64,000 nt of DNA, from assembly GCF_024138715.1 (NCBI RefSeq), contig NZ_CP092074.1, positions 4,836,001 to 4,900,000 of the forward strand, written 5' to 3'. The first letter of the stretch is position 1, and every line of letters begins with the position of its first letter. The position numbers were made by a program, and so were the translations under genes. Below, piece after piece: positions 28,113 to 64,000 of the stretch. Below the pieces are notes generated by a model. That model was given only the letters and a program-made list of their open reading frames with translations. It was not told the DNA's origin and searched no databases. This DNA is from Emticicia sp. 21SJ11W-3. GTDB taxonomy: Bacteria > Bacteroidota > Bacteroidia > Cytophagales > Spirosomataceae.

Positions 28113-28632
28113 AGTAATACTTAATAATTAAAATTTAGCTCCTACTCATTAGGCTTTTCGGAAAACGCCCCGTTTTTTATGATGGTTTCTGGTCTCCATT
28201 TTTGTATGTTTATGTAATATGAGGCTTTGGCTACCTATTAATACATAATATATACAATTTACCTTTAATGCTCATTAAGGTTTATATCACTAAACCATTA
28301 CCAATAAGCAACATACAAGGAAGTTTCAATCTGGCCTCTACTTCCAGACAACCAAGAAACACATTACCCCTACAAAAATTGAATAATTATTTTAAGCAGG
28401 GTACCTTTCAGATATTATCTATTGATTAAGAATTTATTTTACCGAAAAGCCTGAAACAACCCATAAACAAATTGTAGGCTTTATGCAGGCAGCAAAGGTT
28501 GTATTATGCTGGGGTTACTTAAACCTCATAAATTTATGCAAGTATGCAAAAAACAAAACAAATTGGCAAGCCGTTACCTATAAAAATGACAATTAATCCC
28601 AGCCGTTATCATCCACTTAAAAATCTGAGATT
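28113..28632. other. Long divergent spacer, no gene seen
   Basis: 520 AT-rich bases between the PEGA lipoprotein and a beta-barrel gene. Open frames are short and without protein-like composition. No TAnnTTTG element, tRNA or strong repeat is seen; one short GC hairpin near 28160 (AAAACG/CGTTTT) is weak. It is big enough for a small RNA, but nothing specific supports one. Confidence 0.55.
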
Positions 28633-59955: not shown

Positions 59956-60351
59956 ATGATGCGTAAACTATTAATTATTGCTCTTTTGGCACTGGGTGCC
60001 TGCAAAAATAAAAAGGCAGATTTGGGAGATTTTGATTTACAGAGTTTCAAAACCGACCGCGGGGGTTGTGAAGACAAAAGAGTAAAACTGATTGAGCCTC
60101 TGAAAGACCTGCGGCCAAAAATTCTGGGACTGACAGAAAACCAGATTGTTGATAATTTTGGGCGGTATGATTACCAGATTCTGAGCCGCCGGAACGAGAA
60201 AGTATTTGTGTATTTTTTAGAAAAAGGCCCACAATGCGAACAAATCCAGAACCCGACCAACTCGCGCTCGATGCTATTGTATTTCAATGCAGCCAGTCTG
60301 GTAAAAGAGGTATCGTTTCAGAATGGAGGGGTTATTGATACGTATAAGTGA
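59956..60351 (+). CDS. Small lipoprotein, possibly BamE/SmpA-like
   Basis: 131 residues. Lipobox LGAC (Cys16). A segment GLTENQIVDNFGRYDYQIL recalls the BamE/OmlA motif (G-t-x-x-Q-v-x-x-x-x-G), and the following short strands fit that fold. It starts 3 bases after the oxidoreductase gene and may be co-transcribed. BamE-like function is a fold-level guess. Confidence 0.7.
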   Translation: MMRKLLIIALLALGACKNKKADLGDFDLQSFKTDRGGCEDKRVKLIEPLKDLRPKILGLTENQIVDNFGRYDYQILSRRNEKVFVYFLEKGPQCEQIQNPTNSRSMLLYFNAASLVKEVSFQNGGVIDTYK

Positions 60352-60421
60352 TGTACATGAAGGATGTTTTCTAAGGATACAGGGCCGCGTTAAGTGTTCA
60401 CATATTTTTTTTTGAAAACAC

Positions 60422-60451
60422 TTTGTTTTTAAAAAATACTCAATACTTTTG
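60422..60451 (+). promoter_or_regulatory. Promoter of the trp operon
   Basis: TTTG (60422-60425), 18 bases, TACTTTTG (60444-60451), close to the Bacteroidota consensus. The transcript would begin about 10 bases later, shortly before the leader ATG 60475. Confidence 0.65.
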
Positions 60452-60474
60452 TACCCAGAATTTAAACACGAACA

Positions 60475-60534
60475 ATGACTCAACGCAATATTATAGCTAA
60501 CATCTGGTGGTGGCGTTCTTCCGACAAAGGATGA
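60475..60534 (+). CDS. trpL: trp operon leader peptide
   Basis: A 19-residue peptide, MTQRNIIANIWWWRSSDKG, with three consecutive Trp codons at 60505-60513, followed by TGA 60532-60534. Such peptides sense charged tRNA-Trp by ribosome stalling. It sits between the promoter and a hairpin terminator (60573-60608). The peptide has no other function. Confidence 0.88.
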   Translation: MTQRNIIANIWWWRSSDKG

Positions 60535-60608
60535 ACAGCGTAGCTATGTATTGACTCAACGATATAATACCCGGCGGCTTACAGTTCATCCTGTAAGCCG
60601 CCTTTTTT
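60529..60608 (+). promoter_or_regulatory. trp attenuator (antiterminator/terminator)
   Basis: Terminator: GGCGGCTTACAG (60573-60584), loop TTCATC, CTGTAAGCCGCC (60591-60602), T6. Antiterminator: GGATGAAC (60529-60536) is exactly complementary to GTTCATCC (60584-60591) over the terminator loop. A ribosome stalled on the Trp codons (60505-60513) leaves GGATGAAC free so the loop is taken; a ribosome ending at 60534 covers it and the terminator forms. Confidence 0.82.
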
Positions 60609-60640
60609 GTGTCATTATTGCACCGAAATTGTTCAGAAAC

Positions 60641-61051
60641 ATGCAGCAGAAATTTAATTCAGAAATAAGTTACTGGCTTTTTGTGCCGATATTCTGTTTG
60701 TTCTCAGCACTGATAACCACGGCTATAATTGATAAAGCCTGGCCGATGCTGATGATCATGGTATGCGTAACAGCATTCATGGTTAACCTTTTGGCTCGTA
60801 CCTGTTATGTAATAGAAAACCGTAAGCTGACTATTATCTGCGGATTTCTTTTTAAGCAGGAAATTGACATAGAGAATATCCTGAAAATTGAAAAAACCAA
60901 TAGCCCGATTAGCTCTCCGGCCTTATCAGTCAAACACCGGATTGAGATTACTTTCGGTAAATATGACACGGTTATTATTTCACCAGAAAGACGAGCCGAA
61001 TTTATTGAAGCACTGACATTGATTAATAAAAATATTAGCACAAACCTCTGA
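60641..61051 (+). CDS. Small membrane protein with a PH-like domain, first cistron of the attenuated trp transcript
   Basis: 136 residues from ATG 60641; the frame from 60551 would run through the terminator. Two hydrophobic helices (about 12-35 and 38-56) with a short turn, then a cytoplasmic domain (YVIENRKLTIICGFLFKQEIDIENILKIEKT, ISSPALSVKHRIEITFGKYDTVIISPERRAEFIEAL) of the bacterial PH (YdbS/DUF304-like) type. It lies directly after the attenuator and five bases before trpE. No known role in tryptophan synthesis. Confidence 0.82.
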   Translation: MQQKFNSEISYWLFVPIFCLFSALITTAIIDKAWPMLMIMVCVTAFMVNLLARTCYVIENRKLTIICGFLFKQEIDIENILKIEKTNSPISSPALSVKHRIEITFGKYDTVIISPERRAEFIEALTLINKNISTNL

Positions 61052-61056
61052 CTCTC

Positions 61057-62481
61057 ATGCAAAAGTTTGGTATTACTACCCGATACAAACGCCTACTGGC
61101 CGATATGTTGACCCCGGTTGGGATTTTCCAAAGAATCCGTAATCACTTTCCGCATTCGGTTATTCTTGAAAGTGCCGACTACCACGCCATGCACAACAGT
61201 TTCAGCTACATAGCCTGCGACGAGGTGGCGAGTTTCCAACTGGATAACGATATAGTAACACAGGCATTTCCTGACGGAACCACGGCTCAGTTTCCGCTTC
61301 ATAACAGAAAAGAAGCCGTTGGCGTATTGCAAGCCTTTGCGGCTCAGTTCGAAATGCCCAAAACCGATTTCTCATTTATCACTAACGGTTTATTCGGCCA
61401 CATTACCTACGACTCGGTTGAATATTTTGAAGACATAGAAATACAGGCCAAAAGCCCTGAAAATGCCATTCCGCAGATTCTATATAGAGTTTACCGATAT
61501 GTAATTGCCATCAATCATTTCAAAGATGAGCTCTATATATTTGAGCATACCTATACACCAGACGGCCAGGAACCCAAGCCGCTGTCAGACGGGCTTGAAA
61601 CGCTTGAGTTTTTTGTAAAGAATCCTAAAGTAACTACTTCGCAATTCAAAGCCGATTCAGCAGAAGAAACCAATATCAATGATGATGACATGCGTGAAAT
61701 CATCAAAAAATGTATTGGTCACTGTCTGCGTGGTGATGTTTTCCAGATTGTGCCTTCCAGACGTTTTTCGAGAAAATTTGAGGGCGATGATTTCAACGTT
61801 TACAGGGCGCTTCGTTCCATTAATCCTTCTCCTTACCTGTTCTATTTTGATGGTGGAGATTATCATATTTTCGGCAGCTCACCGGAGAAACAGATATTTA
61901 TTAAGGACGGACAAGCCGAAATACACCCGATTGCGGGTACTTTCAGAAGAACAGGTGATGATGAAAGTGATGCCGAACTGGCGCGTCAATTGCACGCCGA
62001 CCCCAAAGAATCAGCCGAACACGTGATGCTGGTTGATTTGGCCCGCAATGATTTATCGCGCAGTTCAGATTCTGTAAAAGTAGATATTTTTAAAGAAGTG
62101 CAGTTCTACAGCCATGTAATACACCTGGTATCTAAAGTAACCGGAAAAATGCACACAGGCACCAACCCGCTGCAGTTGGTAGCCGATACTTTCCCGGCCG
62201 GAACTTTGTCTGGTGCGCCTAAACACAACGCCATGACCATCATCAACCGTTTTGAGCCTACCAACCGCAGCATTTATGGAGGGGCCATCGGCTTCATGGA
62301 TTTCAAAGGCAATTTTAACCATGCCATAGCCATCCGGACTTTCCTCAGCAAAAACAATACGCTTTTCTATCAGGCAGGTATGGGTGTAGTGGCTAAGTCA
62401 GACGTAGAACTGGAAATGAAAGAAATTCACCTGAAACTGGCCGCTTTAAGAAAAGCCATTGAAATGGCAGGGGAAATATGA
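61057..62481 (+). CDS. trpE: Anthranilate synthase component I
   Basis: 474 residues. It makes anthranilate from chorismate with ammonia from TrpG. N-terminal feedback domain (LESADYHAMHNSFSYIAC, 35-52), then the chorismate-using block: FQIVPSRRFSRKF, PSPYLFYFDGGDY, IHPIAGTFRRTGDDESDAEL, EHVMLVDLARNDLSR, FPAGTLSGAPKHNAM, YGGAIGFMDFKG. These catalytic regions are intact. Next in the operon is trpG after 101 bases. Confidence 0.96.
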   Translation: MQKFGITTRYKRLLADMLTPVGIFQRIRNHFPHSVILESADYHAMHNSFSYIACDEVASFQLDNDIVTQAFPDGTTAQFPLHNRKEAVGVLQAFAAQFEMPKTDFSFITNGLFGHITYDSVEYFEDIEIQAKSPENAIPQILYRVYRYVIAINHFKDELYIFEHTYTPDGQEPKPLSDGLETLEFFVKNPKVTTSQFKADSAEETNINDDDMREIIKKCIGHCLRGDVFQIVPSRRFSRKFEGDDFNVYRALRSINPSPYLFYFDGGDYHIFGSSPEKQIFIKDGQAEIHPIAGTFRRTGDDESDAELARQLHADPKESAEHVMLVDLARNDLSRSSDSVKVDIFKEVQFYSHVIHLVSKVTGKMHTGTNPLQLVADTFPAGTLSGAPKHNAMTIINRFEPTNRSIYGGAIGFMDFKGNFNHAIAIRTFLSKNNTLFYQAGMGVVAKSDVELEMKEIHLKLAALRKAIEMAGEI

Positions 62482-62582: not shown

Positions 62583-63149
62583 ATGAAAATTCTGGTTCTT
62601 GATAATTACGATTCGTTTGTGTACAATCTGGTCTATATCCTGAAAGATTTAGGCGGAAATGTAGACGTTTTCAGAAACGACAAAATAGCTCTGGAAGAAG
62701 TAGCTCAATATGACAAGATTCTTCTTTCGCCAGGCCCCGGTATACCAGAAGAAGCCGGAATCATGATTGACCTCATTAAAGAATATGCGCCCAAGAAAAG
62801 CATTTTCGGGGTTTGCCTGGGGCATCAGGCAATTGGTGAGGCCTTTGGCGCCAAGCTACATAACATGGGCGATGTATTGCACGGAGTAACTACTCCGTGC
62901 CTGATAACCGACAAAGATGAACTGCTCTTTAGGGGTGTGCCTGAAAAAATAGAAGTTTGCCGTTATCACTCCTGGACAGTGGTACCCGAAACCATGCCTG
63001 CAGAACTGAAAGTAACTGCTATTGATGAAAAAGGATTTGTAATGGCTGAAGCCCATACAAAGTACGATGTGAGAGGGGTGCAGTTCCATCCGGAGGCATA
63101 CCTGACACAGCACGGAGTGAAAATGGTTGAAAACTGGTTAAAAAATTAA
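62583..63149 (+). CDS. trpG: Anthranilate synthase component II (glutamine amidotransferase)
   Basis: 188 residues, a class I glutamine amidotransferase supplying ammonia to TrpE. LSPGPGIPEEAG, the nucleophile C78 in FGVCLGHQAIGE, and the catalytic His/Glu in VQFHPEAYLTQHG are all intact. Length is normal for a free subunit. It is followed by trpD after 11 bases. Confidence 0.96.
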   Translation: MKILVLDNYDSFVYNLVYILKDLGGNVDVFRNDKIALEEVAQYDKILLSPGPGIPEEAGIMIDLIKEYAPKKSIFGVCLGHQAIGEAFGAKLHNMGDVLHGVTTPCLITDKDELLFRGVPEKIEVCRYHSWTVVPETMPAELKVTAIDEKGFVMAEAHTKYDVRGVQFHPEAYLTQHGVKMVENWLKN

Positions 63150-63160
63150 TTTGCCTCAGC

Positions 63161-64000
63161 ATGAAACAATATTTACAGGTTTTGCTTCAAAACCATACAC
63201 TTTCAAGCGAAGAAGCCAAAGAAGCACTATTGAGAATCGGTCGCGGAGAAAGCAACTCATCGCAAATTGCTGCTTTTCTGATGGGTATTCAGATGCGCGG
63301 GGTTACAGTTGAAGAGCTGGAGGGGTTTCAGCAGGCTATGCTGGAACTGGCTGTGCCCATTGACCTGACTGACTTTGACCCGATGGATGTTTGCGGCACC
63401 GGAGGTGACGGAAAAGACACTTTCAATATTTCTACTACCTCTGCCTTTGTAGTGGCCGGGGCAGGGCAGCCCATTGCCAAGCATGGAAATCATGGGGTTT
63501 CATCGGCCGTTGGTTCAAGCACCGTACTGGAATATCTGGGGGTAAAATTTACTAACGACGAAGGTTTCCTGAAACGCAAGCTGGAAACCGCAGGTATCTG
63601 CTATATGCATGCGCCGTTGTTTCATCCGGCTATGAAATACGTAGCGCCCATCCGTAAAGAATTAGGCCTGAAAACCTTCTTCAATATGCTGGGGCCATTG
63701 CTAAACCCCGCCAAAGTACAAAAGCAGCTGACGGGCGTATATGACATGAAAGTATTTGACCTCTACACGCAATTGTTTAACCGTTCAGCAGCACAATTTG
63801 GTATTATTTATGACCTGGGCGGCTACGATGAGATTTCGTTCACGAACGATTTCAACATTGGCACCAGGCATGGGGTGGTAGTGCATTCTCCTACCCATTT
63901 TAGTTTTGACCTGACCGAGCAATCTGCATTGCATGGTGGTAATACGCTGGAAGAATCCGCAGGTATTCTCATCAATATTCTTGAAAACAAAGGTACTGCT
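63161..64000 (+). CDS. trpD: Anthranilate phosphoribosyltransferase (3' end beyond window)
   Basis: 280 codons visible, open to the right edge. It joins anthranilate to PRPP. GTGGDGKDTFNISTTSA is the PRPP-binding glycine motif and KHGNHGVSSAVGS the anthranilate/PRPP loop; LGPLLNPAKVQKQLTGVY follows. Starts at ATG 63161, 11 bases after trpG. Family members are about 330-345 residues, so some 50-60 residues are missing. Confidence 0.95.
   Translation, partial: MKQYLQVLLQNHTLSSEEAKEALLRIGRGESNSSQIAAFLMGIQMRGVTVEELEGFQQAMLELAVPIDLTDFDPMDVCGTGGDGKDTFNISTTSAFVVAGAGQPIAKHGNHGVSSAVGSSTVLEYLGVKFTNDEGFLKRKLETAGICYMHAPLFHPAMKYVAPIRKELGLKTFFNMLGPLLNPAKVQKQLTGVYDMKVFDLYTQLFNRSAAQFGIIYDLGGYDEISFTNDFNIGTRHGVVVHSPTHFSFDLTEQSALHGGNTLEESAGILINILENKGTA

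Follow-up and report, generated by a model that had tools for sequence, protein, structure and literature searches.

The window, i.e. the whole stretch of 64,000 nucleotides that was analysed, comes from Emticicia, a genus placed by NCBI in the Leadbetterellaceae, Cytophagales. The element described here is followed by the genes bPH_4-trpE-trpG-trpD, in this order (Table 1). Beyond the window (L354), the gene series continues with trpC, trpF, a trpB-like PLP-dependent enzyme that was taken as trpB, and trpA. Two extra genes lie between these members of the operon, encoding a DUF6036 nucleotidyltransferase-like protein and a Dabb-domain protein (L354, 2005-2481 and 3715-4095). A bPH_4-domain gene ahead of trpE was also present in the relative L004 (1086-1496). 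In L031, L032 and L044 the leader lies 551-583 nt from trpE, equally far as with the bPH_4 gene; in most loci this spacing is about 113-268 nt. Elsewhere in the window, positions 28135-28204 of the minus strand hold a DUF805 RNA (RF03081, 76 bits), a known Rfam motif.

Table 1. Features of the trp leader region and downstream genes (positions in the window).
Feature	Position	Strand	Basis
Bacteroidota-type promoter: TTG 60423-60425, 18 nt, -7 box TACTTTTG 60444-60451	60423-60451	+	Sequence; relatives
Leader peptide ORF MTQRNIIANIWWWRSSDKG, 19 codons, ATG 60475, stop TGA 60532-60534	60475-60534	+	Sequence; WW(W) leaders at the same place in relatives
Three consecutive Trp codons (sensor)	60505-60513	+	Sequence; W-run leaders in relatives
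P1 outer hairpin, 5' strand, directly before the Trp codons	60486-60499	+	MFE; covariation
P1 outer hairpin, 3' strand, directly after the antiterminator	60541-60553	+	MFE; covariation
Protector (segment 1), partner of 60529-60539	60513-60522	+	MFE; 79% paired in 26 relatives, covariation weak
Antiterminator GGATGAAC (segment 2), extendable to 60528	60529-60536	+	Sequence; shuffles; relatives
Intrinsic terminator hairpin: arms 60573-60584 / 60591-60602, 12-bp stem, loop TTCATC 60585-60590	60573-60602	+	Sequence; consensus scan; stem covariation
Antiterminator target GTTCATCC, loop plus closing pair G60584-C60591	60584-60591(92)	+	Sequence
Terminator T-run, six T	60603-60608	+	Sequence
Small bPH_4-domain protein gene, between attenuator and trpE	60641-61051	+	PF06713 (E 2e-22); alike gene in L004
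trpE	61057-62481	+	PF00425, PF04715
trpG	62583-63149	+	PF00117
trpD, runs past the window end	63161-64000	+	PF00591, PF02885

A preliminary description of this DNA had claimed a complete trp attenuator, with a 19-residue leader carrying three consecutive Trp codons and an antiterminator that pairs with the terminator loop. The leader, the terminator and the 8-nt complement could be read directly in the sequence, and GGATGAAC is the exact complement of GTTCATCC. This pairing gains one further pair (A60528 with T60592) and was rarely equalled by chance (p = 0.004; 500 dinucleotide shuffles). One detail of the description had to be corrected, as the antiterminator contains not a part of the leader stop codon but the whole of it. 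The minimum free energy (MFE) of 60457-60612 was -51.3 kcal/mol (z = -5.15), and a scan of 60300-60700 with a terminator consensus found the terminator of Table 1 and no other. The pattern of a Trp-run followed by an antiterminator occurs only once in the 5.18-Mb genome, which consists of one contig. A short Trp-run ORF thus precedes tryptophan biosynthesis genes, an intrinsic terminator separates it from the first gene, and, according to sequence and computed folding, an antiterminator that excludes the terminator is available differently to a stalled and a finished ribosome. On this sequence evidence we consider the trp attenuator genuine. A near-repeat, TGACTCAACG (60477-60486 and 60553-60562), which is not kept in L004 or L031, was dropped as a chance occurrence.

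To place the element among its relatives, 230 regions upstream of trpE were collected. L001-L030 are the best 30 of 200 genomes of the family, which we take to be the Spirosomataceae of GTDB; L031-L110 are the best 80 of 188 loci; and L111-L230 were hand-picked among the matches listed. After setting aside 21 exact repeats and two cut regions, 176 distinct loci carried both a WW(W) leader and a terminator. The full set was incomplete in 31 of the 230 regions, of which 24 had no W-run ORF and seven had such an ORF but no terminator. An alignment of 26 family loci (A1) was also made. Two observations concern the surroundings of the trp genes in these genomes: L136 has a 5S-rRNA-like stretch (recognised by eye) and a terminator upstream of its trp attenuator, and many contigs of the family have their first base 400-700 nt ahead of trpE, which would fit a repeat, for instance an rRNA operon, in front of trp.

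The promoter that had been proposed for the window was borne out by these relatives. The box TACTTTTG is kept in all 11 loci of L001-L011, and 137 of 175 loci have the motif TAnnTTTG no more than 60 nt from the leader ATG, compared to 5% in shuffled sequence. From the position of the promoter, transcription in the window is predicted to start at about 60456. In Flavobacterium psychrophilum, the -7-type box sits at -12 to -5 according to PMC9723704. In 47 of the 175 loci (among others L012-L025, L053, L054 and L057-L060) the box ends only 4 nt (23 loci) or 5 nt (24 loci) before the leader ATG; in the window this distance is 23 nt. Because a box at -12 to -5 would put the start at the AUG or one base earlier, the trp leader mRNA of those 47 loci, not that of the window, would encode a leaderless leader peptide.

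The MFE fold of the window consists of an outer hairpin, P1 (60486-60499 with 60541-60553), which encloses the Trp codons and the antiterminator, of a protector helix (60513-60522 with 60529-60539) and of the terminator. In A1, nine of the 19 pairs of P1 and the terminator had changed on both sides, a number that none of 500 shuffles reached. Five of these changes were among the 12 pairs of the terminator stem (95% paired) and four among the inner seven pairs of P1 (89.6% paired). Ungapped pairing scores of P1 were also higher for own than for swapped partners, both in the 176 loci (15.4 vs 13.2, permutation maximum 13.7) and in the family (16.25 vs 13.37); in Flavobacteriia-type loci the score was 12.85 for own and 12.01 for swapped partners, with a permutation maximum of 13.00. 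The protector was paired in 79% of cases in the 26 relatives, compared to 26-55% for slid versions, and scored 11.7 with own vs 9.8 with swapped partners. Three of its pairs had changed on both sides, which was reached by 124 of 500 shuffles. Judged from these sequences, the protector is less well supported than P1 and the terminator.

To locate the antiterminator target, the segment after the Trp codons, searched from 6 nt after the last Trp codon, was allowed to pair without gaps anywhere in the terminator. In 150 of the 176 loci, the centre of its best complement lay no more than 4 nt from the loop centre. In 144 loci the pairing was both loop-centred and had a score of at least 14, comprising 87 different sequence pairs, while swapped partners satisfied both criteria in 30%; the remaining 32 loci fell short of the loop-centred score cut. 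The mean pairing score was 18.6, compared to 14.95 (SD 0.21) over 2000 partner permutations of the 176 loci. An earlier set of 135 loci, obtained with a stricter terminator finder, gave 119 loop-centred pairings vs 21% with shuffled antiterminators. Among 111 distinct pairings, with one representative each, 77 had a dinucleotide-shuffle p ≤ 0.05 and 17 had p > 0.2. Copies were also sought with a covariance model (R1) built from the 26 relatives. In the window's own genome only the trp element was significant (E 6e-25; next match 0.46), and in a sample of the class 42 of 149 genomes matched at E ≤ 0.01. Ten of these 42 matches were inspected, of which five had a Trp-run leader and terminator; the other five lacked them and were taken as chance matches. 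The loop-centred antiterminator appears to be a widespread variant in the Bacteroidia.

The extent to which the pairing reaches into the terminator arms varied among the groups. In the family and its close kin (L001-L050, L111-L143), the 5' arm contributes bases to 52 of 55 pairings. Among the Flavobacteriia-type loci (L051-L110 except L075), 44 of 51 pairings have no 5' arm base and all 51 have 3' arm bases, with the pairings centred 1.5 nt past the loop centre. Overall, 84 of the 144 loci touch the 5' arm and 60 do not, and 92 touch the 3' arm. Within the window's genus, the top of the 5' arm reads CTG in L005-L011, opposite CAG or CGG, so that ATGAACAG can pair with CTGTTCAT; in L001-L004, CAG faces CTG, this type of extension is lost and the pair A60528-T60592 is gained. 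The preliminary description held that the antiterminator attacks the loop plus the closing pair and no whole arm. This holds for the window's small clade, L001-L004, but not for most family relatives, in which part of the 5' arm is paired as well. Seen across these sequences, the loop-plus-closing-pair pattern is one point in a range.

The family pattern (52 of 55) also bears on the possibility of a plain E. coli-type attenuator, in which the 5' arm is the functional target of the antiterminator and the match extends into the loop only incidentally. A gapped extension of this kind can be drawn by eye in the window (GTAGC at 60540-60544 with 60577-60582), and the putative attenuator ahead of ilvD in this genome targets the 5' arm plus the loop, centred 5.5 nt before the loop centre. 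When gaps are disallowed, however, only one base of the 5' arm, its last, is paired in the window, and the 60 loci without 5' arm bases, the 92 with 3' arm bases and the offset of +1.5 nt in Flavobacteriia-type loci do not fit a target in the 5' arm. Moreover, the best ungapped match in E. coli K-12 is centred at -7.0 and contains no loop base. We therefore consider this explanation unlikely, and prefer an antiterminator directed at the apex of the terminator.

As the preliminary description had proposed, compensatory changes were sought between 60529-60536 and 60584-60591. Joint changes of the two segments were seen next to a conserved core, towards the 3' side of the target. In 68 loci that could be anchored on TGRRC / GYYCA, the first flanking pair on the 3' side was a standard pair in 85%, compared to 44% (SD 5.5) with shuffled partners, and occurred as A-T (18), T-A (20), G-C (15) and G-T or T-G (5). 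The second and third flanking pairs showed a smaller excess (66 vs 49% and 47 vs 33%). Pairs flanking the core on the side of the 5' arm were barely above shuffled partners (91 vs 88, 63 vs 60, 51 vs 46 and 41 vs 33%).

We placed 64 of the 68 anchored loci on a TrpE tree. The first flanking pair was A-T in the window's genus (L001-L011) and T-A in its Lacihabitans/Leadbetterella-type neighbours, and L012, with an unpaired T/C, branches just outside these two groups. Independent contrasts of A against T went the same way in four out of five cases and never in the opposite direction (p = 0.125), too few for significance. For G against the rest, on average 2.0 of 4 contrasts went the same way and 0.3 the opposite way; for T against the rest, 2.4 of 6 and 0.0, respectively. 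With at most eight independent contrasts, this sign test has low power. In A1, the antiterminator pairing was satisfied in 83% of cells vs 26-47% for slid versions, and its covariation score exceeded that of all 500 shuffles; three of its ten pairs had changed on both sides, which is unexceptional (equalled by 83 of 500 shuffles). Across the relatives, wholly different pairs occur, such as GGGATGA/TCATCCC, GGCTGAT/GTCAGCC, ATTGAGTGA/TCACTCAGT and GTCGTGA/TCACGAC. Hence, inheritance of one motif is an insufficient explanation for the complementarity.

Toeprints place the leading edge of a ribosome 12 nt downstream. We took the footprint as reaching 12 nt past the first base of the A site, so that a ribosome on the stop codon covers stop-18 to stop+12. 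A reach of up to 12 nt downstream is also stated in PMC4833913. The distance from the last Trp codon to the start of the antiterminator is nearly constant in the 144 loci (median 17 nt, SD 2.4, range 10-35) and is 15 nt in the window; with its start at 6 nt, the search would have admitted smaller values. The position of the stop codon ranges between 12 nt ahead of the antiterminator start and 36 nt behind it (SD 8.6), and its overlap with the antiterminator is not conserved across loci. With the ribosome waiting at the first or the last Trp codon of the run, the antiterminator was wholly free in all 144 loci. With the stop codon in the A site, it was wholly covered in 119 loci, partly in 20 and uncovered in five. 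In no locus does the stop precede the start of the antiterminator by more than 12 nt, the limit of contact with the footprint. The ribosome-position logic that had been proposed for the window, in which stalling at Trp frees the antiterminator and completion of the leader hides it, thus fits the geometry of this set, with the antiterminator mostly covered on the stop. An apex-directed antiterminator is the best explanation for what was seen directly: the anatomy of the element, its conservation, the covariation of its pairings and the spacing relative to the ribosome.

It might be argued that the leader and terminator are real and that the loop match is a relic or chance match without function in this species, as some relatives have a weak pairing or none (the 17 of 111 distinct pairings with p > 0.2). 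The window's own p value of 0.004 speaks against this, as do the retention of the pairing in relatives, the paired changes and the near-fixed distance to the Trp codons, and we regard a functionless match as extremely improbable.

We calculated equilibrium folds of the leader RNA at successive transcript lengths, so that the pairing that wins at each length is a computed result. With the ribosome on any of the Trp codons of the window, the predicted probability of the antiterminator was 0.995-0.999 while the exposed RNA ended at 60591-60597, fell to 0.05-0.89 at 60599 and reached 0 at 60602. A ribosome on the stop codon kept it at 0.000 at every length, and in naked RNA it was at most 0.22, with the protector dominant. 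At 60602 the completed terminator had an equilibrium probability of 0.997, whether the ribosome was stalled or not. The 144 loci, which had already been selected for complementarity, behaved similarly. At 7 nt short of the end of the stem, the mean probability of the antiterminator was 0.90 with a stalled ribosome, 0.02 with a ribosome on the stop and 0.24 in naked RNA; with the full stem exposed it was 0.13, 0.00 and 0.00, respectively. Only 20 of the 144 loci kept the antiterminator above 0.5 against the completed terminator. Because the completed terminator wins at equilibrium, the pairing in the window could work only if it forms first. In these calculations the antiterminator is favoured chiefly as long as the 3' arm is not fully exposed, which would make antitermination a kinetic event.

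The free segment could also bind the loop of a terminator that has already formed, as a kissing or pseudoknot interaction that tunes termination rather than preventing the hairpin. The complementarity is aimed at the loop, and many loops hold 5-7 nt. Yet loops of 3-5 nt are too short to hold the whole pairing while closed, and the pairings reach into the arms (5' arm in 84 and 3' arm in 92 of the 144 loci), so that they exclude the closing pairs. Tuning of a formed terminator therefore seems very unlikely.

We propose that transcription of the trp operon in the window is, very probably, attenuated in a ribosome-mediated manner, by means of an antiterminator directed at the terminator apex. When Trp-tRNA is sufficient, the ribosome would reach the leader stop and cover 60529-60536, the terminator would form and transcription would end. 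When Trp-tRNA is scarce, the ribosome would stall on UGGUGGUGG and mask the 5' strand of P1 and most of the protector, leaving GGAUGAAC accessible immediately beyond the front of its footprint. As the loop emerges from the polymerase, GGAUGAAC would pair with GUUCAUCC and hold the apex, where closure of the hairpin would begin, during transcription of the T-run. If the leader is not translated, P1 and the protector would hide GGAUGAAC and termination would be the default. We infer from this arrangement that tryptophan is the signal, that readthrough changes in response to it and that the block of hairpin nucleation is kinetic.

We give an even chance to a broader proposal, that Bacteroidia as a whole use this strategy in their trp operons. 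A segment freed by stalling would capture the apex of the nascent terminator (the loop, joined in Flavobacteriia by the initial bases of the 3' arm) and block nucleation during the short transit of the T-run, with no stable rival hairpin that sequesters the 5' arm. The switch would be purely kinetic, and the code between antiterminator and loop would have been rewritten many times by paired changes. Well over 100 natural variants of one switch are now available, in which the stop, the loop and the arms vary and the distance from the Trp codons to the antiterminator hardly does. These many variants with a near-constant distance make the element a good system to distinguish equilibrium competition from blocked hairpin nucleation as the action of an antiterminator.

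Other amino-acid operons were searched for leaders of a similar kind. By a simple criterion, no His-rich leader with terminator was found upstream of hisG, and no Phe-rich leader with terminator upstream of pheA, in 30 family loci each. Upstream of ilvD, 11 of 30 loci had a match, of which L332 and L344 look spurious; an Ile/Leu/Val-rich leader with terminator was present in L322 (the window's own genome), L324-L326, L328, L329, L331, L341 and L342. In nine of the 11 loci the centre of the complement preceded that of the loop by 3 to 7.5 nt, and the segment near the stop pairs with the upper part or most of the 5' arm plus part of the loop. The ilvD element is a putative branched-chain attenuator nearer to the E. 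coli scheme, in the same genome. In another Bacteroidia genome, with trpE located elsewhere, a Trp-run leader and terminator lie upstream of a trpD-type gene (PF00591; L411, 1501-1542), which suggests that split trp operons carry separate attenuators.

In the literature searched, mostly non-subscription, we found no loop-aimed antiterminator of Bacteroidota; a study by Lopatovskaya et al. 2010, reportedly a comparative study of attenuation, may treat Bacteroidota trp attenuators. No such antiterminator was found in the accessible parts of PMC1262725, PMC4833913 and PMC3766115, and a term search of the text of PMC2965389 gave no result. The candidate trp attenuators of Actinobacteria, described from comparative evidence in PMC1262725 as far as its text was available, share a repeated-UGG leader, a terminator and an antiterminator. 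They differ in having conserved complementary triples (gGCC-rGCy-GGCC) shared by the antiterminator and the terminator, and were called analogous to those of proteobacteria. In F. psychrophilum, of the same phylum as Emticicia, Bacteroid-trp has been noted ahead of the trp operon and control of amino-acid operons by leader-peptide attenuation has been inferred; the available parts of these papers do not describe a loop-aimed antiterminator (PMC6414381, PMC9723704).

The E. coli trp attenuator (Trp_leader, RF00513) shares the Trp-run leader, the 1:2 protector and the terminator with T-run, and its antiterminator likewise follows the Trp codons at roughly the distance of a ribosome's edge (14 nt vs 15 nt in the window). 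The window aligned weakly to RF00513, with 20.4 bits vs a cutoff of 41, i.e. below the gathering score. The contrast with E. coli that had been claimed held when the same measure was applied to both, in the one E. coli genome compared. In K-12 trpL (L356), the partner of CGGGC is GCCCG, which lies in the 5' arm, and the match is centred 7 nt before the loop centre, whereas the pairing of the window is centred near the loop centre and comprises one base of the 5' arm, six loop bases and one or two bases of the 3' arm.

The closest known system is the Bacteroid-trp RNA (RF01692), which is listed in a table of Weinberg et al. 2010 (PMC2864571). Like the window, it has a Trp-rich leader peptide upstream of Bacteroidota trp genes and a hairpin across the Trp codons, and it ends in the 5' arm of the same terminator. 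In contrast, its consensus, in the alignments shown, stops at the 5' arm AAAAAGGCUUGUC, leaving the terminator loop, the 3' arm and the antiterminator pairing outside. RF01692 matched six of 20 loci tried, six of eight outside Cytophagales and none of 12 within Cytophagales; it had no match in the window at the gathering score, nor at E ≤ 10 in 60400-60700. P1 likewise joins the surroundings of the Trp codons to the sequence after the antiterminator, and covaries in the 26 loci. Hence, the element of the window is predicted to work like Bacteroid-trp and is not filed as a member of RF01692. The kind of attenuator and the trp leader of Bacteroidota are already known from that model. The present comparison extends the element to Cytophagales and adds, from sequence outside the existing Rfam model, the putative loop-centred antiterminator that supplies the piece missing from it.
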